A DNA stretch of 26,949 nucleotides from positions 1 to 26,949 of the IMG/VR virus record IMGVR_UViG_3300021962_000535; one strand, given 5' to 3'. Below the pieces are notes generated by a model. It made no database searches. It saw nothing but the letters and a program-made list of their open reading frames with translations, and was not told the DNA's origin. Positions 5,138-21,771 of this stretch are shown here, piece by piece. Position 1 is the stretch's first letter; each line of letters opens with the position of its first letter. This DNA comes from a virus. The position numbers were made by a program, and so were the translations under genes.

Positions 5138-7005
5138 TGGCAGCGCCAGCATGGGCCACAGACCTCACAGACATCATCGTTGACCCAACATCGACCACTG
5201 GCTGGACGGCTCTCGGTGGCGGTGCGTCCGGTCTCCCCACAGCGGGTGAGACGGACTACTACGTCCAGGGCAGCACCTGCATGTCGAAAGGTGCCTGGAC
5301 CAACGCCCTGAAGGGCATGATCTACGCCAACGGCGGTGGTACTCCGGCCAACTTCACGGTTCCCACATCTGGTGTCGTGCTCGCCTGGGGCTACTACTCA
5401 GCGCCCGCCTCGCTGTCCAATAAGGCCGGTGGTGGGCTTCGCATCGTCATCGGATCGGGAACCGGCGCGTACTACCATTACTACGTCGGCGGGAGCGACA
5501 CCCTGACCTTCGAGTCGTGGGTGCCATACGTCGTTGACCCCAACACCGCCACAGCGGACACCACTACCGGCGCACCATCCGGCACCGAGGGCTACGTCGG
5601 CATCCTCGCCAACCTGCCCACCACAGCAGGCCCCACTAAGGGGAACCCCATCGCTATCGACGCGATCAGGTATGGGCGACACACCCTGACCTACACGCTC
5701 GGTGATGGTGCCCCGAACTACAACACCTTCGCGCTCGCAGAGGCTACGGCCAACTCGAACACGAACCGCTGGGGCAACATCGAGTACAACAAGGGTGTCT
5801 ACCTGGTCCAGGGCTTCCACTCCTTTGGGTCCTCGGGCACGGCTGTGGACTTCCGCGACTCCAACAAGGTGCTCTTCATCCGTGCCTCTGGTGGCAACAA
5901 CGGAGGCAACGACGCGGTGGCTACGGCCTACAACCGCTTCGAGATCCTCAATGCCAGCAGCAACGTGTCGTGGACGAACATCTCCCTCTCGGCGCTGGGT
6001 ACTCGTGCTCGTGGTGTCTTCGTTCACACGGCAGGCACCCTGACGCTCGACTCCTGCCAGTTCACAGACATGGACACCTTCTCGTTCCTGGCCGCAGCCA
6101 GTGTGACCGACACGGTCTTCCGTCGCTGTAACGCTGTCACTGCTCCCGGCACCAACCTCGTTGGCTCACAGATCCGCACGCCAACCGTGGCGGCTGACGC
6201 CTCTGGCTTGGTGTGGAACGTCGCAACTGACACTGACGGCAAGTTGGACGACATGGTCTTCACCAAGGGGACCAACGCTCACCACGCAATCGAGTTGGGG
6301 ACGACCAGCCCCACGACGGTCACGCTGCGCGGTCTGACGTTCACCGGCTTCAACGCCAGCAACGCGCAGAACGACTCGACCATCTACGTCAAGCGCACCA
6401 CCGGTACTGTCACCATCAACCTGGTGGGGTGCTCCGGCAACATCTCCTACAAGACCGATGGCGCCACGGTGGTGCTGGTGACCGACCCGGTCACCCTGTC
6501 CGTGCACGTCCAGGACGCCAACACCGGCTCGCCCATCTCAGGAGCCCGCGTCTGGGTGCCAGTCACCTCCAGCGCCGGTGGCCGTCCCTACCTCCAGTCC
6601 ATCTCCTCGATCACCCGCTCGGGTTCAACGGCGACGGTGACGACCGGTACAGATCACAACCTAGCCACCAACGACTATGTGGACATCGCTGGTGCGACCG
6701 AGCAGGAGTACAACGGCACCTTTCAGGTCACGGTTACTGGAGCAACCACCTTCACCTACACCGTGACCGGCACCCCCAGCACACCAGCGGGCGGTACCAA
6801 GACGGTGACCTTCGTGGTCATCTCTGATCTCACTGATGGCTCAGGAGACATCTCAGCGACATACTCATGGAACGCGAGTCAGCCCGTATCAGGGAGGGTC
6901 CGTAAGGGTTCAAGTGCAACGTACTACAAGACATCACCCATCTCCGGGACTATCGACTCCGGGGCGGGCCTGGCTGTTACCATTCAGATGATCCCTGACG
7001 CATAG
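5137..7005 (+). CDS. Putative beta-helix virion protein (tail spike or fibre type)
   Basis: A 622-residue protein starting within the previous stop (TGATG). Residues about 1-200 are Gly/Thr/Tyr-rich beta sequence with a chain-end or anchoring look. Residues about 200-440 contain short hydrophobic strands spaced as in right-handed parallel beta-helices (FEILNASSNVSWTNISLSAL, LTLDSCQFTDM, TLRGLTFTGF, INLVGCSGNISY). From about residue 450 there is an Ig/CarboxypepD-like strand (LSVHVQDANTGSPISGARVWV), followed by a small domain with ATVTTGTDHNLATNDYVDIAGA, a motif common in phage adhesins. I see no clear catalytic residues, so depolymerase activity is not supported. Role as a receptor-binding or surface protein is inferred from fold style and context. 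Confidence 0.75.
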   Translation: MAAPAWATDLTDIIVDPTSTTGWTALGGGASGLPTAGETDYYVQGSTCMSKGAWTNALKGMIYANGGGTPANFTVPTSGVVLAWGYYSAPASLSNKAGGGLRIVIGSGTGAYYHYYVGGSDTLTFESWVPYVVDPNTATADTTTGAPSGTEGYVGILANLPTTAGPTKGNPIAIDAIRYGRHTLTYTLGDGAPNYNTFALAEATANSNTNRWGNIEYNKGVYLVQGFHSFGSSGTAVDFRDSNKVLFIRASGGNNGGNDAVATAYNRFEILNASSNVSWTNISLSALGTRARGVFVHTAGTLTLDSCQFTDMDTFSFLAAASVTDTVFRRCNAVTAPGTNLVGSQIRTPTVAADASGLVWNVATDTDGKLDDMVFTKGTNAHHAIELGTTSPTTVTLRGLTFTGFNASNAQNDSTIYVKRTTGTVTINLVGCSGNISYKTDGATVVLVTDPVTLSVHVQDANTGSPISGARVWVPVTSSAGGRPYLQSISSITRSGSTATVTTGTDHNLATNDYVDIAGATEQEYNGTFQVTVTGATTFTYTVTGTPSTPAGGTKTVTFVVISDLTDGSGDISATYSWNASQPVSGRVRKGSSATYYKTSPISGTIDSGAGLAVTIQMIPDA

Positions 7006-10405: not shown

Positions 10406-12340
<1,935 letters not shown>

Positions 12341-12353
12341 CGACCGGTCGACT

Positions 12354-12357
12354 AGGA
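12354..12357 (+). promoter_or_regulatory. Ribosome site that decides the glycosyltransferase start
   Basis: AGGA overlaps the ATG at 12357, so that codon cannot use it. It is eight bases from the ATG at 12366, making 12366 (MTIHLVG) the preferred start. The ten-base palindrome CGACCGGTCG lies just upstream. Confidence 0.6.
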
Positions 12358-12365
12358 TGACCGGC

Positions 12366-13523
12366 ATGACCATTCACCTAGTAGGACTCCCGCACACCTC
12401 CCTGGACGACGTCACCTTCTCGACGTGCGCCTTCACTACCAAGGCAGTCCGCTGGATCGAGATCCTCCAAGACCTCGACCTGGACGTCGTCGCGTACTGG
12501 GGCGGAGGAAAGACGACAGCCACCTGCGAGGTGGTCGAACTTCTCTCCGAGCAGGAGCGACTCGACTACTTCGGTCCCGACGTGGCCACGGTGCTCCCCT
12601 TCATCGAGTGGGGTGAGCACGCCGAGTACTGGCGGGTGTTCAACCATCGGGCACGCACCGAGATCGGTACGCGCATCAAGCCGGGGGACCTCATCGCGGT
12701 GTGGGCAGGCGGGGCACACCAGACGGTGATCGACGCCTTCCCAGACAACACCTCGATCGAGCCTGCGGTCGGGTACGAGGGCTTGGCGCGGAATACGTTC
12801 GCCTGCTTCGAGTCGTACGCGTGGATGCACCACCGCTACGGCGCGCACAACATCAACGACGGGCGAGCCTTCGACGCGGTGATCCCTAACTTCGTCAGAC
12901 CCGGCGACTTCTACAACGAACTCGACGCGGGCTACCTGCTCTTCATCGGCCGCGTGAGCGTTCGCAAGGGGCCGCACGTTGCCGCTGACATCGCGGAGCG
13001 TGTTGGAAAGCCACTGGTCGTAGTCGGGGCCGGTGGTACTGACCTTGGGAACGGCTTCATCCGGGCCGACGGTGGTGTGGAGTTCGCGGGGGACTACCGA
13101 GGACCGGTGGGGCCCGCCGAACGCGCCAAACTCATGGCGAACGCCTCAGCCCTTATCGTCCCGACGCTCTACATCGAGCCCTTCGGCACCGTACACGTCG
13201 AGGGGATGATGTCCGGGATCCCTCCCATCGCTCCCGACTACGGTGTCTTCACCGAGACGATCCGACAGGGCATAACGGGCTTCCGGTACCGCACGCTTCA
13301 GCAGGCCGTCGACCAGGTCCACTTGGCCGACCGGCTCTCTCCTGAGACGATTAGGCAGGAAGCCATCAACCGCTTCTCCCTGAAGGCCGTCGCTCCAGCG
13401 TTCGATGAGTGGCTGTGGCGCGTCAGGTCGGTTCGAGAGTCAGGCGGCTGGTACTCCACGGAGTACTTCGGGAAGGGCAGCGATGAGGGCAGCGGACTTC
13501 GCGGTGGGAGCAGCCCCGGTTGA
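12366..13523 (+). CDS. GT4-type (GT-B fold) glycosyltransferase
   Basis: A 385-residue retaining glycosyltransferase that moves a sugar from a nucleotide-sugar donor to an unknown acceptor. The C-terminal Rossmann domain begins at LLFIGRVSVRKGPHVAADIA; R196 and K201 are at the places that hold the donor diphosphate in this family. The E-x7-E motif is complete: EPFGTVHVEG with E271 and E279, followed by MMSGIPPIAPDYGVFTETI. The N-terminal acceptor domain (residues 1-185) begins directly with IHLVGLPHT, with no signal peptide or membrane segment, so the enzyme is cytoplasmic. It is the first gene after collagen-like protein 2; threonine-rich collagen repeats are glycosylated in Bacillus BclA, so a fibre is a likely acceptor. 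DNA or host wall sugars are alternatives. The end overlaps the next gene by 41 bases. Confidence 0.88.
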   Translation: MTIHLVGLPHTSLDDVTFSTCAFTTKAVRWIEILQDLDLDVVAYWGGGKTTATCEVVELLSEQERLDYFGPDVATVLPFIEWGEHAEYWRVFNHRARTEIGTRIKPGDLIAVWAGGAHQTVIDAFPDNTSIEPAVGYEGLARNTFACFESYAWMHHRYGAHNINDGRAFDAVIPNFVRPGDFYNELDAGYLLFIGRVSVRKGPHVAADIAERVGKPLVVVGAGGTDLGNGFIRADGGVEFAGDYRGPVGPAERAKLMANASALIVPTLYIEPFGTVHVEGMMSGIPPIAPDYGVFTETIRQGITGFRYRTLQQAVDQVHLADRLSPETIRQEAINRFSLKAVAPAFDEWLWRVRSVRESGGWYSTEYFGKGSDEGSGLRGGSSPG

Positions 13524-15258: not shown

Positions 15259-16815
15259 ATGGCTACATACTCACGGCCCGGCGTCTACATCGAGGAGAAC
15301 CTCTCCCCGCTGCCGCAGGCCCCCGTTGCCCCGGGTGTTGCTCAGGCTGCCTTCATTGGCACTGCCGATCGCGGCCCGACCGACCCGACCGTGGTGAACT
15401 CCTGGTCCGACTACGTTCGCATCTTCGGCGGACTGAACGGCGGAGACCTGGCGTACGCGGTCTGGTTGTTCTTCAACAACGGCGGAACCTCCTGCCGTGT
15501 GATCCGCGCGTACTCTTCGGACGCCACGAAGGCAGACGTCGGGATCAACGACCTCGACGGCAATGTCGACGCGCTGACGTTCACCTCGAAGTACCTAGGG
15601 GACTGGGGCGACAGCATCTACGTCACCCTCGCTACCCCGACGATCGTGGACGCTGCCCGTCCCGGACGCTTCGACCTGACGATCAAGTACGGCGGCACCG
15701 CTGACAGCAACATTGTGGAGCGATTCGCCGACCTGAGTCTCGACCCGCTGGACTCGCGCTACCTGGTCAACATCGTCAACAGCCCCATCTCGGGATCGAC
15801 CTACGTCGACTCCGCCGTCAGCGGCGTCGTTGTCCCAGGCGAGTACGACGCGGCGCTGCACCAGCCCGTCTTCGCGGCCGACTCGGTCCTGACCGGTGGC
15901 GCTGACGGTGTGGCCTCCCCCGGCTACAACGCCGCAATCGACCGCATCGACCTGATCGATGGTGTCGTGCTGCTGAACATCCCCGGCGTCACGAGCACCT
16001 CGATCATCGACTACGCCAACGAGTACGGCAAGGCCTCCGGCCGGGTGTTCACCATCGTGGACTCCCCGGCTCCCGATGTGGACGCCGCTGCTTCGCTGAC
16101 GGCTATCGAGGCCTTCCTCCCGGGCGGTGGCACCCCGTACGACGCCTCCTCCTACCTGGCGGTCTACGGCCCCTGGATCACGGTCCCGGACCCGCAGTCG
16201 TCCGCCTCTGGCGCCACGGTCACCCTGCCTGCTGGTGGGGCTGTCGTGGGTCGCTTCGTCACCGCCGACGTCTCACGCGGCACGCACAAGCCTGCGGCTG
16301 GCACCAGCCTCCCGCTGCTCGGTGTCGTGGCTGCCGGGACTGTCTTCTCCGGAACGCAGCAGGACACACTGTTCGCCAAGGGGTTCAACCTGATCAAGGC
16401 CGTACCCGGTGCAGGCTTCTGCATCTGGGGACAGCGCACGCTCGGCCAGGGCACCCCGGACCGCTCGGTCGCTGTGCGGCGCACGCTGCTCCAGATCCGC
16501 GCAGAACTTCACGCACGCGTGCAGTTCGCAGTCTTCGAGCCGAACACCCCGAACCTGTGGGAGACCGTCGAGAACGTGCTGGACCAGTACCTTCTCCAGG
16601 TCCACCAGGACGGTGTGCTGGCCGGAGATTCGCCGCGTCAGTCCTACTACGTGGTGTGTGATGCAAGCAACAACAACGACCTGACGGTCGCCAACGGAGA
16701 GGTCCACATCGAGGTTGGCGTGGCCCTTCAGACCCCGGCCGAGTTCGTGGTCATCACGATTGGCCAGTTCGACGGAACCACCGTCGTTACCGAAGAGACC
16801 AGCGACGAAGGCTGA
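15259..16815 (+). CDS. Tail sheath protein
   Basis: A 518-residue contractile sheath subunit, a normal size for phage sheaths. TGAGGAG (15247-15253) is the ribosome site. The N-terminus YSRPGVYIEENLSPLPQAP and AAFIGTADRGPT, with the arm that laces to neighbouring subunits, is diagnostic. GGTSCRVIRAYS follows, as in many sheaths. The variable middle (about residues 90-390) includes FLPGGGTPYDAS. The C-terminal domain, about residues 410-510, has VRRTLLQIRAELHARVQFAVF, then NLWETVENVLDQYLLQVHQDG, and EVHIEVGVALQTPAEFVVI, the conserved polymerisation core. The tube gene follows after eight bases. Contraction of this sheath drives the tube through the cell envelope. The call is firm. Confidence 0.97.
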   Translation: MATYSRPGVYIEENLSPLPQAPVAPGVAQAAFIGTADRGPTDPTVVNSWSDYVRIFGGLNGGDLAYAVWLFFNNGGTSCRVIRAYSSDATKADVGINDLDGNVDALTFTSKYLGDWGDSIYVTLATPTIVDAARPGRFDLTIKYGGTADSNIVERFADLSLDPLDSRYLVNIVNSPISGSTYVDSAVSGVVVPGEYDAALHQPVFAADSVLTGGADGVASPGYNAAIDRIDLIDGVVLLNIPGVTSTSIIDYANEYGKASGRVFTIVDSPAPDVDAAASLTAIEAFLPGGGTPYDASSYLAVYGPWITVPDPQSSASGATVTLPAGGAVVGRFVTADVSRGTHKPAAGTSLPLLGVVAAGTVFSGTQQDTLFAKGFNLIKAVPGAGFCIWGQRTLGQGTPDRSVAVRRTLLQIRAELHARVQFAVFEPNTPNLWETVENVLDQYLLQVHQDGVLAGDSPRQSYYVVCDASNNNDLTVANGEVHIEVGVALQTPAEFVVITIGQFDGTTVVTEETSDEG

Positions 16816-16823
16816 GGAGCCCC

Positions 16824-17408
16824 ATGAGTAACGGATACTTCAACCAGAAGGGCTCGATCGGTCACCTGAAGACCGATCCCCTCCGCAACTTCCGGTTCAT
16901 CGTGGAGATCCACGACGGCAACGGCGGGTTCGGGGACCAACTCGGGTTCATGTCGGTCTCCGGCCTGAGCATCACGACCGAGGTCATCCCCTACCGTCAG
17001 GGCGGACACAACACGACCACGCAGAAGATGCCTGGTCAGTCCGACTTCGCCCCGCTGACGCTGTCTCGTGGCCTCCAGATGGGCCGCACCGACAAGCAGT
17101 CGAGCCGATGGATGAGGCAACTCTTCAGCGTCCAGCAGGGCGCCGGGGCTCGTGGTGGTGCCGACCTGAACGACGACTTCCGTCACCGGGTCACCATCAA
17201 GGTCCTCGACCACCCTGTCACCCAGGGCAAGGTTCCCGTCAAGGCCGCGTGGCGCGTCTACAACGCGTGGCCGACCTCGGTTGCCTTCTCCGACCTCGAC
17301 GCGGGCGCCAACGCCATCGTCATCACCCAGATGACCCTCGCTCACGAGGGCTGGGAGTTCGCGCTGGCCGACGGCATCGGCATCAACAAGACGGCCCAGT
17401 TCAACTAG
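16824..17408 (+). CDS. Tail tube protein (T4 gp19-like)
   Basis: A 194-residue inner tube subunit. It follows GAGGAG and begins MSNGYFNQKGSIGHLKTDPL, then NFRFIVEIHD. The pattern LGFMSVSGLSITTEVIPYRQGG and KMPGQSDFAPLTLSRGLQ is characteristic of the gp19/Hcp-related tube family, in which a beta-barrel ring of six subunits is stacked into the tube. The C-terminal part has VAFSDLDAGANAIVITQMTLAHEGW, also typical. The next gene begins after a 64-base gap with AGGAG at 17462. Size, order after the sheath, and motifs agree. Confidence 0.96.
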   Translation: MSNGYFNQKGSIGHLKTDPLRNFRFIVEIHDGNGGFGDQLGFMSVSGLSITTEVIPYRQGGHNTTTQKMPGQSDFAPLTLSRGLQMGRTDKQSSRWMRQLFSVQQGAGARGGADLNDDFRHRVTIKVLDHPVTQGKVPVKAAWRVYNAWPTSVAFSDLDAGANAIVITQMTLAHEGWEFALADGIGINKTAQFN

Positions 17409-17472: not shown

Positions 17473-18387
17473 ATGAGCAGCGAGACCGTTGACCGGATCG
17501 AGTTCGCCAACGATCCCTTCGAGGATCGAGACAACGCGGCGAAGGCGAGCGCTGGCGAAGGCCCTCCTGCGTACACCCCGGAAGAGATCGCGAAGATCAA
17601 CGCGGAGAGCGCGGCGGTCATCGCCTCAACCACGGTGGCGCAGCAGCCGTCACTCGAACTGCCGACCAACACGTACGTCACCCTTCCCGCTGGTCTCATC
17701 ATCGACGGGGTAACGTACACCGAGGCTCAGGTTCGAGAACTGAACGGGGACGACGAGGAGGCGCTCGCCAAGGCTGCGCTCAGCGGAGACTCATTCCGGT
17801 ACGTCAAGGTCCTTCTCGACCGTGGTGTCGTGTCGGTAGGGCCCGTTCCCGCCTCTCCCACAGTGCTTCGGGATCTTCTCATTGGAGACCGTGAGGTGCT
17901 GATCATGTCTGTTCGACAGGCTACCTTCGGGGACGACGTGATCATCGACCCGTACTTCTGTCCGAACTGCGGGGACGAACTGGTGGCCACTATCCAACTG
18001 AGCACCGTCCCGATCAAGGCGCTGGAAAGCGAGCGCGAGTTCGACGTCCCACTCCGGAAGGGTGGAACGGCCCGCGTGCGTCTCCCTGACGGACACGTTC
18101 AGGAGGCTACCCTCAGCAACGGCAACATCACGGCTGCCGAGCAGAACACGATCCTTCTGTCCAAGTGCGTCCTCAGCATCACGGACTCCAACGGAAAGGC
18201 GGAGTTCATCAGCGGATCCACCTCGAAGGTGAACGCCCTCGGAATCTCCGACCGTCGGACGATCCTGAAGGAGTTTGGCGAACGTCAGCCAGGTCCCCGG
18301 TACGATGAGGTGAAGATGCGGCACGAGGCATGCGACACGGAGGTTGGGGTTCCCCTGACCGTGGTGGAGATGTTTCGCGGCCTCTGA
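17473..18387 (+). CDS. T4-baseplate-family protein, probable tail assembly chaperone (zero-frame product)
   Basis: A 304-residue protein. Residues 1-65 are polar and Ala/Glu-rich. Residues about 70-190 contain VTLPAGLIIDGVTYTEAQVREL, GDDEEALAKA and DREVLIMSVRQATFGDDV, a pattern I relate to the T4 base-plate protein family (gp26-like). FCPNCGDEL (CxxC, about residue 161) and a later HEACDTEV may bind zinc. It sits between tube and tape measure, where tail assembly chaperones are found. A 57-codon frame (18359-18532) overlaps its end in the +1 frame and has no usable start codon, which strongly suggests a longer frameshift product of about 352 residues. The chaperone role comes from position and the frameshift arrangement. 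Confidence 0.8.
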   Translation: MSSETVDRIEFANDPFEDRDNAAKASAGEGPPAYTPEEIAKINAESAAVIASTTVAQQPSLELPTNTYVTLPAGLIIDGVTYTEAQVRELNGDDEEALAKAALSGDSFRYVKVLLDRGVVSVGPVPASPTVLRDLLIGDREVLIMSVRQATFGDDVIIDPYFCPNCGDELVATIQLSTVPIKALESEREFDVPLRKGGTARVRLPDGHVQEATLSNGNITAAEQNTILLSKCVLSITDSNGKAEFISGSTSKVNALGISDRRTILKEFGERQPGPRYDEVKMRHEACDTEVGVPLTVVEMFRGL

Positions 18388-18388
18388 C
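18373..18388 (+). promoter_or_regulatory. Probable +1 programmed frameshift site
   Basis: The zero-frame codons are TTT CGC GGC CTC TGA C. Shift to +1 must happen between 18359 and 18387, because a stop lies in the +1 frame at 18356 and the zero frame stops at 18385. Two candidate slips are visible. At TTT-C, tRNA-Phe (GAA) could move from UUU to UUC with perfect pairing. At CTC-TGA-C, the layout resembles the CTT-TGA-C site of the release-factor-2 gene, with a weakly terminating UGAC; the CUC-to-UCU re-pairing is poorer. A GGAG lies at 18366-18369. Confidence 0.65.
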
Positions 18389-18532
18389 TACATACAAACG
18401 CAGCGTGAGATCGTAGAACTATCCGAAGAACATCCCGGCTGGCCCCTTAGTGACATTCGCCGACTAACCGTACGTGAACGGTCCTTCTGGTACAGGAAGT
18501 TCCGTTACGACTACGAGCGAAGGACGTACTGA
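18377..18532 (+). CDS. Frameshift extension of the tail assembly chaperone
   Basis: These 51 codons, read in the +1 frame, encode a plausible helical peptide: YIQTQREIVELSEEHPGWPL, then SDIRRLTVRERSFWYRKFRY, ending ERRTY. The LTVRERSFW style is common in the C-terminal parts of tail assembly chaperones. There is no ATG, GTG, TTG or CTG in this frame from 18359 to 18532, so independent translation is unlikely. It ends two bases before the tape-measure start, filling what would otherwise be a 147-base gap. Chaperone pairs made by frameshift just before the tape measure are well known in tailed phages; most use -1, fewer use +1 or -2. Confidence 0.72.
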   Translation, partial: AASDYIQTQREIVELSEEHPGWPLSDIRRLTVRERSFWYRKFRYDYERRTY

Positions 18533-18534
18533 GG

Positions 18535-21500
18535 GTGGCTGAAGACAGCATCGCCGGAGGTCGACTCCTCGGTACCGCCAAGGTGCAAGAGGGCATTGAC
18601 GAGGTCGGCAAGCAACTGAAGGCCCTTGCCGAGCAGATCAAGGGTCTCGCTGCGCTGACCAAGACCTCCGTCGTGGGAGGCAGCGTAGCCTCCGGCTCGG
18701 TACCCATGTCGATGGGTAAGGCCAACGGCGGTGGTGGCAAGTTTGCCGGGGCCGAGTTCCCGCAGGCCGGTGCTCCTTCGCCGTTCCGGGCCGGGCTTGC
18801 TACCGGAAACCCGCAGTCTCCTCTCACCAGCCAGCCCACCCAAGCCCCACCCAACACTCCCAACGGTGGTGGAGGCTCCTTCGCGGGATCGATGCCCGGA
18901 CGGGCTCTGTCCGGTGGGGCTGCGACCTTCGCCGCTCTGGCCAACTACGGCAACCGGGTCATGCCCGAGCAGGTGGCCAACAACTACGTCGAGCGCTACG
19001 CCTCTCGCGGGGCGGTGACCTCGGGCAGCCTGACGAAGAGCATGTTCACCAACCAGTTCTACGGACAGTCGTCGGAGGATCTCCAGCAAGGTGCGATGAC
19101 CTACGTCAGCCAGTCTGGTAACGCGTGGGGTAGCCAGCAGCAGATCCGTGACACCCGTCAGTTGGGTGGCTACTCGGTAGCGAACCCGACGATGGCGTAC
19201 GCCGACGTCATCAAGGGGCAGATGGATGCCACCTCCACGAAGGGGTACTACGGCCTCGCACAGTGGGGTGTGAGCACCCTTGGAGCCAACGGCCGCACGG
19301 TAGGGGCCCAGGGGATCGGCAACCAGTTGTCGCGGACGATGGGGATCAACCCGAACGCGGACTGGACCAAGAAGCAGATCAACGCGACGTTCAACGACCA
19401 GAACTCGGCGGTGAACTCGAACTTCCGCATGCTCGTTGGCACCGGGGCTATGACCCAAGAGACCGCTGACATGCAGTTGGCGCAGATGCGATCTCGCGCG
19501 GTGGCCAAGTCGAACGGTATGTCTGGCTCCGTCTACAACCAGACGATGAAGGCGTACCTGGGATCCGATGACGGCTCCTCTGAGCACGAGGCGGCGGCTA
19601 AGTCGTTGTCGGAGGCCGGTATCACCGACACCGGTATGCAGAAGATGCAGGAGTTGGCCGGTACGCAGCGCAACCGCACGGTGAACCAGACGGACGCGTT
19701 CATCGACGGGCTAGGAGATGCAGCAGACGTCATCGGCAAGTTCTCTCAGGCGATCACCGACTTCCTAGAGAAGACCGGACTCGACAAAGCCATCGGGTAC
19801 GGCGGAGGAATGTCCTCGATGTTTGCTGGAGCGGCTGGAGGAACGCTAAGCACCCTAGGCAGTATCGCCACGGGGTTCGGTGTCACCAGTCTCGCTAAGG
19901 GTGCGCTTAGCAAACTACCTATCCCCAAGGGGCTCCCGAAGCCGGGCATGCCGAAACTTCCTGGCGGTGGTCTTGCTACGGCGGGAAACGCGCTGCGTAC
20001 AGGAGCGACAGCAGTGGTCGGCGGAGGGGCTACGACGGTGGCCGCTCTAGGCACAGCGGCGGTAGCAACTACTGCTGTGGCCACAGAGCGATCTCTGCGC
20101 GCCTGGGACGCAATGAACGCCCGCGAGGACTTCATCAACGTCTACGACAAGGAGTTCGACTCCTTCACTCCGGCGCAGCAGCAGTACCTTATGTCGAGGT
20201 ACGGCGAGGTACAGGACGCGATGGCGGCCGACGAGCACGCCAACAACACCGACGGCGTCTTCACCTCGCTCATGGGCGGCAGTGGTGAGGAGAACCTCCA
20301 GGCAACCATGGACAGCATCCTGTCCGGCATGCCCCTGGACACCGCTGCCACAACTGGTGGCGCCACTGTCGTGGACGGCGTCACGCTAAGTGAGAAGAGT
20401 GCGCTGGCCCGAGGGATGGGCACTAGCCCTGGTGCCGGGGCTAAGAGCCGACGGAACACTGGTGGTGGTGGTCCCGACACCTCCGGCCGTACCTCCGGTA
20501 AGAGTAAGGGTCACCGCAGCGGTAAGCCGCAGGTGTCTGGAGACGCCATCGCCAAGTACGCCCTGACGTTCGTTGGCAAGGTGCCGTACGTGTGGGGAGG
20601 AGAGACCCCCAACGGGTGGGACTGCTCCGGGTTCGTCACCTACGTGTTCAATCACTTCGGAATCTCGGTGCCTCGCCTGGCCGGTGACCAGGCCCGTGCC
20701 GGTAAGCCCGTGAAGAAGGGCGACATCAAGCCCGGAGACCTGCTCTTCTTCGAGTTGGGATCACAGTCGGCCACCGACAACGGATCGCGCGCCGACCACG
20801 TAGGTATCGCCATCGGTGGCGGGAAGATGGTCAACGCCGCGAACACGTCCGACGACACTTGCGTCATGCCTATCTGGGACACCTTCACGCACGCACGCCG
20901 ATTCGCCGGAGCCGGGTCGGGCTCGTACGACGGCAAGAATGGAAAGGGCGGTGACGAGGAGTCGACAGACCCGGGCAACGGGTCGTCTACCAGCACCGTT
21001 GGCGCCTCGTCTGAACTCGCAGCCGTGCAGGCGGCCATGGCCGGTGTCGCTGGCGGGGGCGCAGGAGTTAGTGGTGCCAGCGGAAGCAACAAGAACAGGG
21101 GTGGAGGATCCGGTGGACCTAGCGCAGCAGCACTGAAGGGCAACACTCTTCTGAAGACACTCAGCGACGCCGGGTTCAAGGGTGACGGCCTTCGTACTGC
21201 CTGGGCTGTGGCGATGGCCGAGTCTGGTGGGCGTCCCCGCGCGCTGGCTGACGACTCCGACGACCTGTCCTACGGCCTGTTCCAGATCAACATGATCGGG
21301 GACCTAGGCCCCGCTCGGCGCGAGCAGTACAACCTGAAGTCCAACGAGGATCTCTACGACCCTGCCACCAACGCTCGTGTCGCGTTCTTGATGTCTCAGA
21401 AGGGCACCAACTGGAGCCCCTGGACCACATACACAGGTGGTGCCTACAAGGACTACTACAACAAGGTTCCCGGGTACGCCCGGGGAGCCTGGAAGATTGA

Positions 21501-21771
21501 TGGCGACCAGGCTGCCACGGTCCACGACGGGGAGATGATCATCCCGCGTGACCAGGCCGAGACCATCCGCTCCGTCCTGATGAGGGAGAATGTGGGTGGG
21601 CTCAACGGCAACCGTGGCGGCGGTGCGGGGGGTCTCTACATGATCTTCCAGCCGGGGTCGATCAAGTTCGGGTCGGCCGGATCCGGGTCTGACGCAAAGC
21701 GCTTCGCGAAGCAGTTCGTGGACGCTGTTGCCGACGACCACCGAGTCAAAGAGTTGCAGAAGGGGCGCTGA
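18535..21771 (+). CDS. Tape measure protein with NlpC/P60 and lytic transglycosylase-like domains
   Basis: A 1078-residue protein with a GTG start and GAAGGA (18519-18524). It sets tail length and helps DNA entry. Residues 1-45 are a coiled-coil-like start. Hydrophobic Ala/Gly-rich segments lie at about 420-460 and 485-518. Residues about 668-785 form an NlpC/P60 domain: WDCSGFVTYVF with catalytic C697, ADHVGIAIGGG with H755, and N767 at the usual third polar site. Residues about 880-985 look like an SLT/lysozyme-like domain: AWAVAMAESGG with E896 and SYGLFQIN at 912-919. VHDGEMIIPRDQAE near the end is a common tape-measure motif. The enzyme domains would open the cell wall during injection. 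The stop overlaps the next start (TGATG). Confidence 0.95.
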   Translation: MAEDSIAGGRLLGTAKVQEGIDEVGKQLKALAEQIKGLAALTKTSVVGGSVASGSVPMSMGKANGGGGKFAGAEFPQAGAPSPFRAGLATGNPQSPLTSQPTQAPPNTPNGGGGSFAGSMPGRALSGGAATFAALANYGNRVMPEQVANNYVERYASRGAVTSGSLTKSMFTNQFYGQSSEDLQQGAMTYVSQSGNAWGSQQQIRDTRQLGGYSVANPTMAYADVIKGQMDATSTKGYYGLAQWGVSTLGANGRTVGAQGIGNQLSRTMGINPNADWTKKQINATFNDQNSAVNSNFRMLVGTGAMTQETADMQLAQMRSRAVAKSNGMSGSVYNQTMKAYLGSDDGSSEHEAAAKSLSEAGITDTGMQKMQELAGTQRNRTVNQTDAFIDGLGDAADVIGKFSQAITDFLEKTGLDKAIGYGGGMSSMFAGAAGGTLSTLGSIATGFGVTSLAKGALSKLPIPKGLPKPGMPKLPGGGLATAGNALRTGATAVVGGGATTVAALGTAAVATTAVATERSLRAWDAMNAREDFINVYDKEFDSFTPAQQQYLMSRYGEVQDAMAADEHANNTDGVFTSLMGGSGEENLQATMDSILSGMPLDTAATTGGATVVDGVTLSEKSALARGMGTSPGAGAKSRRNTGGGGPDTSGRTSGKSKGHRSGKPQVSGDAIAKYALTFVGKVPYVWGGETPNGWDCSGFVTYVFNHFGISVPRLAGDQARAGKPVKKGDIKPGDLLFFELGSQSATDNGSRADHVGIAIGGGKMVNAANTSDDTCVMPIWDTFTHARRFAGAGSGSYDGKNGKGGDEESTDPGNGSSTSTVGASSELAAVQAAMAGVAGGGAGVSGASGSNKNRGGGSGGPSAAALKGNTLLKTLSDAGFKGDGLRTAWAVAMAESGGRPRALADDSDDLSYGLFQINMIGDLGPARREQYNLKSNEDLYDPATNARVAFLMSQKGTNWSPWTTYTGGAYKDYYNKVPGYARGAWKIDGDQAATVHDGEMIIPRDQAETIRSVLMRENVGGLNGNRGGGAGGLYMIFQPGSIKFGSAGSGSDAKRFAKQFVDAVADDHRVKELQKGR

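Follow-up and report, generated by a model that had tools for sequence, protein, structure and literature searches.

The window analyzed here, that is, the whole stretch of 26,949 bases of the virus record IMGVR_UViG_3300021962_000535, raises the question of how a reading frame devoid of start codons comes to be expressed between a tail assembly chaperone gene and the tape measure gene of a contractile-tail module (Table 1). From stop to stop, this frame, shifted by +1 relative to the chaperone gene, runs from 18359 to 18532 (57 codons), with ATG, GTG, TTG, and CTG all absent; the GTG of the tape measure gene, at 18535, lies two bases past its end, and the overlap with the zero frame covers the 29 bases from 18359 to 18387. 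A first-pass annotation had described this start-less frame and had confined any shift to the overlap; an ORF scan confirmed the coordinates, and the frame overlap confirmed the confinement. The gene order is that of a G/GT locus, the gene of the short chaperone G lying between tail tube and tape measure and overlapping the start-less second frame. Sequence comparison leads us to propose that a programmed +1 frameshift at UUU_C yields a G/GT chaperone pair, a reading to which we assign a probability of about 90%.

Table 1. Features of the tail module around the frame junction (positions within the window).
Feature	Position	Strand	Basis or remark
Tail sheath gene	15259..16815	+	phrog_23, E 3.8e-44
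Tail tube gene (T4 gp19 family)	16824..17408	+	PF06841, E 8e-31
G, short tail assembly chaperone of the T4 gp26/PF12322 family, zero frame, 304 aa	17473..18387	+	PF12322, phrog_150, AlphaFold, Foldseek
Putative slip heptamer ATG_TTT_C	18370..18376	+	TTT (18373-18375) would be in the P site; C (18376) makes UUC after a +1 shift
Zero-frame stop TGA	18385..18387	+	Four codons 3' of the slip codon
CTC-TGA-C, second candidate slip site, rejected	18382..18388	+	Not conserved in homologues
T, +1-frame C-terminal domain of the predicted long form GT, without start codon	18377..18532	+	Would add 51 residues
Conserved T motif GW-x(10)-RER-x-x-W	18437..18490	+	Homologue alignments
Tape measure protein, a single chain with both NlpC/P60 and SLT-type lysozyme domains	18535..21771	+	Domain matches

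Elsewhere in the window, two long collagen-like proteins with a GATGPTG repeat (1866 to 2954 and 10406 to 12340) are probably fibres, a third repeat-rich stretch runs to the right end, and an ORF between two structural gene blocks (12357 to 13523) resembles a glycosyltransferase by the look of its sequence alone. A tRNA search of the window found none.

As regards the first protein, G matches PF12322 with 36.2 bits against a cut-off of 24.5 (E 6.7e-9 in the family-model search) and phrog_150 with an E value of 5.5e-13, in agreement with the earlier assignment to a chaperone family of the T4 baseplate. Furthermore, the fusion read through TTT-C has 352 aa, the size that had been anticipated, and reaches further along the phrog_150 profile, to position 270 of 282 instead of 231. 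The AlphaFold model, computed for the G protein only, without T, has a pLDDT of 89.5, and the Foldseek comparison with viral models retrieved T4-like hub assembly proteins (E 9.9e-21), SP-15 (1.2e-10), and gp26 of Aeromonas phage 25 (7e-5). Judging from this model, G shares its fold with the PF12322 tail chaperones typified by T4 gp26 and gp51. A PDB fold search with the same model gave no significant match, the best sensible one being the HK97 chaperone 2ob9 (prob 0.47, E 0.64). The invariant cysteines C163, C166, and C287 of G resemble a zinc-ribbon-type site and recur across the broader PF12322 family.

A tblastn search against phages returned six records from five Streptomyces phages (BRock, LuckySocke, Alone3, pSt2308, and GiJojo), each with the first protein, at 36 to 41% identity, and the +1 peptide. 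The annotation records a frameshift in none of these five regions; it presents the second frame as a separate hypothetical gene with differing starts (BRock gp135, GiJojo 83, LuckySocke 91) or, in pSt2308, omits it. On the reading proposed here, Streptomyces phage genomes thus have the long chaperone either misannotated as a small gene of its own or overlooked. Scans of IMG/VR and of genome contigs added about 90 more loci, among them contigs of Saccharothrix, Streptomyces, Actinomadura, and Nonomuraea; single-protein scans with L091, SP-15, and Atu_ph07 each matched only the query itself. From the phages, IMG/VR, and prophage contigs, mostly of actinobacteria, we assembled 70 distinct junctions. 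The first-pass annotation had called for an alignment of homologues, and in this alignment the break in the frame, the +1 peptide, and the bases of the slip site are all conserved; the observations that it had named as contrary, namely, an unbroken frame, a normal start for the second frame, or an unconserved +1 peptide, were not encountered in the homologues.

An in-frame TTT followed by C was found in 69 of the 70 junctions, in the same alignment column and a few codons 5' of the zero-frame stop, although these sequences share ancestry and the counts are not independent events; UUU then C in the zero frame corresponds to the UUU_C class, the +1 direction being inferred from the frames and the re-pairing. 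The lone exception, locus L091 (1560 to 1600), reads GAT CTT CTA TAG, i.e., CTT-C, as if CTGTTTC had lost three bases, and re-pairing of tRNA-Leu with UUC makes this a possible +1 site. In the codon alignment, made only of TTT-C sequences (68 sequences, 52 clusters at 80% identity, with L091 and the truncated contig L025 excluded), the slip Phe codon is TTT in 68 of 68, the sole single-codon column among 32 conserved chaperone columns; the next best shows one codon in 90%, and TTT represents 30% of the other Phe codons. The codons neighbouring the slip site vary synonymously. The preceding codon is CTG (36), TTG (19), CTA (8), or another (6), and the following one is always a sense CNN codon (CGN 45, CTN 16, CAR 6, CCN 2), Arg being encoded always by CGN and never by AGR, and Leu always by CTN and never by TTR. 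Since the zero-frame stop occurs 2 to 9 codons past TTT and all three stops are used (TGA 32, TAA 21, TAG 16), the shift must be at TTT-C. In the window itself, TTT is rare (10 of 207 Phe codons in 14 genes, 5,509 codons) and an in-frame TTT-C occurs only twice in the 14 genes, one of them exactly inside the 29-base overlap, which is therefore more than chance.

The peptide encoded downstream, already described as chaperone-like, follows in the homologues the pattern YxxL-x(4)-PGWxLxEIxxLxxRERxxW, and in the T alignment R336 is invariant and W323, E335, and W339 are each conserved in at least 90% of sequences. T is a conserved domain and, as judged from sequence, evolves as a coding sequence: comparison of close homologues (94 pairs, not independent) gives 1272, 719, and 2873 differences at codon positions 1, 2, and 3, respectively. 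ATG, GTG, and TTG are absent after the slip in the window and in five others, and before the conserved W in 37 of 68. Both the slip site and the second-frame product are thus conserved in the relatives, as in G/GT systems.

According to the proposed mechanism, two tail assembly chaperones would be made from one start. The majority of ribosomes would terminate at the TGA at 18385 and release G, whereas a fraction of them, whose P site holds tRNA-Phe (anticodon GAA) paired with UUU, would slip by +1, the tRNA passing from a wobble pairing with UUU to a perfect match with UUC, and would read the +1 frame to its end at 18532 to give GT. By analogy with the lambda G/GT proteins, coating of the tape measure would fall to G, and recruitment of the tube protein probably to the T domain of GT. 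The sequences themselves show how the frames are arranged, that TTT-C is conserved, that T is coding, and to which family G and T belong; what happens at the tRNA, how efficiently, and what G and GT each do are what we infer, and P-site re-pairing of tRNA-Phe from UUU to UUC fits better than any alternative tried. Our literature search, which covered few subscription papers, found no paper on UUU_C shifting in PF12322 or in bacteriophage chaperones.

Among the alternatives, a -2 shift at this position, of the kind known from gpGT of phage Mu (PMC5009743), would reach the same frame and would give a product with one extra residue (M-F-F-A-A-S-D-Y). However, this would require the Phe anticodon to pair anew with UGU, a mismatch, and both the constant C after TTT and the absence of TTC would be left unexplained, which makes this shift improbable. 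It is slightly less probable still that T is a separate small protein made from an internal or noncanonical start, even though it is so annotated as a CDS in BRock, GiJojo, and LuckySocke, the window frame contains ATA, ATC, and ATT codons, and translational coupling near the stop is possible. In fact, the window frame lacks all of the four start codons considered above, the annotated starts fall at differing points within or just before the domain, the conserved +1 residues begin upstream of these starts and before the zero-frame stop, and the conservation of TTT-C would find no explanation.

Of the two slip sites listed in the first-pass annotation, TTT-C stood, whereas CTC-TGA-C, right before the zero-frame stop, did not. 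The latter string occurs in the window as well as in many relatives and could suggest slippage resembling that of release factor 2 (RF2), but 37 of 69 junctions close the zero frame with TAA or TAG, the distance from TTT to the stop varies as reported above, CTC is often absent, and an SD-like element is not enriched, all of which renders such slippage highly improbable; the site was rejected, BRock having CTC-TAA, L008 GGT-ATG-TAA, and L009 CTT-TAG. A sequencing error or a decayed gene, with one intact frame in reality, could not be excluded from one window alone, but the homologues already refute it: dozens of independent assemblies and five sequenced Streptomyces phages have the same break at the same codon, and T is under coding constraint. 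Transcriptional slippage, instead of ribosomal frameshifting, is known elsewhere to yield two products from a single gene (PMC5009743), but the run in the window consists of three T, far too short by current knowledge. We consider these last two explanations next to inconceivable.

With regard to elements that could stimulate the +1 frameshift at UUU_C, no downstream hairpin or pseudoknot was detected, the RNA being less structured than control windows of the same genes (z +1.1 to +1.5), and SD-like elements showed no enrichment at the junctions (11 of 52 versus 155 of 874 in the control); the window carries GGAG three bases 5' of TTT (-6.4 kcal/mol). A rare A-site codon was not present either, the CGC of the window being common (19.4 per 1000 codons). 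The A1 codon is commoner than the A0 codon at only 15 of 52 sites, and only these satisfy the corresponding PRFect rule. The distinct TTT-C junctions, nearly 90 over two branches, thus form a large natural set of candidate bacterial +1 sites without a recognised stimulator, which makes it testable how a phage sets the G:GT ratio without pausing elements.

The second of these branches comprises the Firmicutes-type relatives (SP-15, Streptococcus phage GXN1, and IMG/VR contigs), where T lies in the +1 frame at 24 of 27 distinct IMG/VR junctions, with TTT-C in 18 of the 24, mostly as TTT CGT. The LIS04 junction reads TTT TTT AGT and that of a Firmicutes-type sub-branch AAT CCC AGT, where CCC-A may act as the +1 site; therefore, TTT-C can be lost or replaced. 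In the jumbo/proteobacterial-type branch, 56 of 56 distinct junctions place T in the -1 frame and carry an X_XXY_YYZ heptamer, which is T_TTT_TTC in every junction listed. The loci with T in the -1 frame (L100-L101, L106, and L149-L231) have T_TTT_TTC, except for T_TTT_TTT in L106 and L149, and in the phage records L100, L101, and L106 T is unannotated or a separate small gene. Such a heptamer occurs in outlying branches only; throughout the actinophage clade, the frame of T is +1. For T4, a two-gene solution without frameshift has been published (Vladimirov, Gautam and Davidson 2022, cited in PMC10885494 and PMC12846349): gp26 consists of the PF12322 domain only (1 to 206 of 208), and gp51 of the same domain plus 48 residues. 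The T4 gp26 and gp51 paralogues are located at 6803 to 8229 of L098, with gp51 bearing an extra T-like tail.

In profile searches run against 2,876 decoys (best decoy E about 1), the actinophage T matched the Firmicutes-type T (E 6.6e-4) and the -1-frame T of L149-L151 (E 2.8e-4), the gp51 tail matched the T of L149-L151 (E 1.1e-7), and the Firmicutes-type T matched the jumbo-type T (E 5.2e-5). The direct HMM match between the actinophage T and T4 gp51 was not significant, and the link passes only through intermediates. These sequences lead us to infer three routes by which one T domain is attached to one G domain, always at the same Phe. We regard it as fairly probable that the PF12322 family changed its decoding rule but retained its pair of products and the same-Phe join, with +1 at UUU_C in the actinobacterial and Firmicutes types, -1 at U_UUU_UUC in the jumbo/proteobacterial type, and duplication in T4; a short U-run plus C, read in two registers, would be the switch, and UUU_C would represent a minimal bacterial +1 signal that needs neither structure nor an SD-like element nor a rare codon. 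If so, +1 shift, -1 shift, and duplication would be interchangeable solutions within one family.

Tail chaperone shifts of -1, -2, or +1 have been reviewed (PMC5009743), and chaperones of the lambda gpG/gpGT type use a programmed -1 shift (Xu, Hendrix and Duda 2004, as reviewed in PMC5009743). Different from lambda, the shift proposed here is +1 at TTT-C, without heptamer or structure, and G is of the PF12322 family; that G domain is shared with T4 gp26 and gp51, and the 48-residue tail of gp51 is homologous to T via intermediates, but T4 relies on two genes without a frameshift. Shifts of +1 in structural proteins are known in Listeria phage PSA and in SPP1 (PMC5009743, PMC3498833), likewise in bacteriophage tail genes, but they concern major tail/capsid proteins, and PSA slips at proline codons. 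The first-pass annotation had called a +1 shift unusual for a tail chaperone, which is fair, yet a +1 shift at TTT-CGC has been proposed for the tail chaperone of HF1-like haloviruses and HSTV-2 (PMC7230728; PMC5009743). The proposed slip bases and the genome position are the same, HF1 reading AAG TTT CGC AGA TAG, but its chaperone is phrog_14268, with no phrog_150 match, and its host is archaeal; therefore, TTT-C there is probably convergent, the same bases having been found twice. Influenza A PA-X is produced by UUU_C +1 slippage, as shown by mass spectrometry (PMC3498833), and shares with our junctions the P-site tRNA-Phe passing from UUU to UUC, a following codon that is mostly CGN, and no obvious structure. 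PA-X differs in being eukaryotic, in its E-site UCC as opposed to mostly a Leu codon (CTG/TTG/CTA) here, and in the rare A-site codon suggested there, which is not required for the class and is not seen here. The UUU_C class predicted from PA-X would thus be extended to bacteria, and, next to the TTT-CGC proposal in HF1-like haloviruses and the two-gene solution of T4, which were already known, UUU_C in PF12322 is an added variant.
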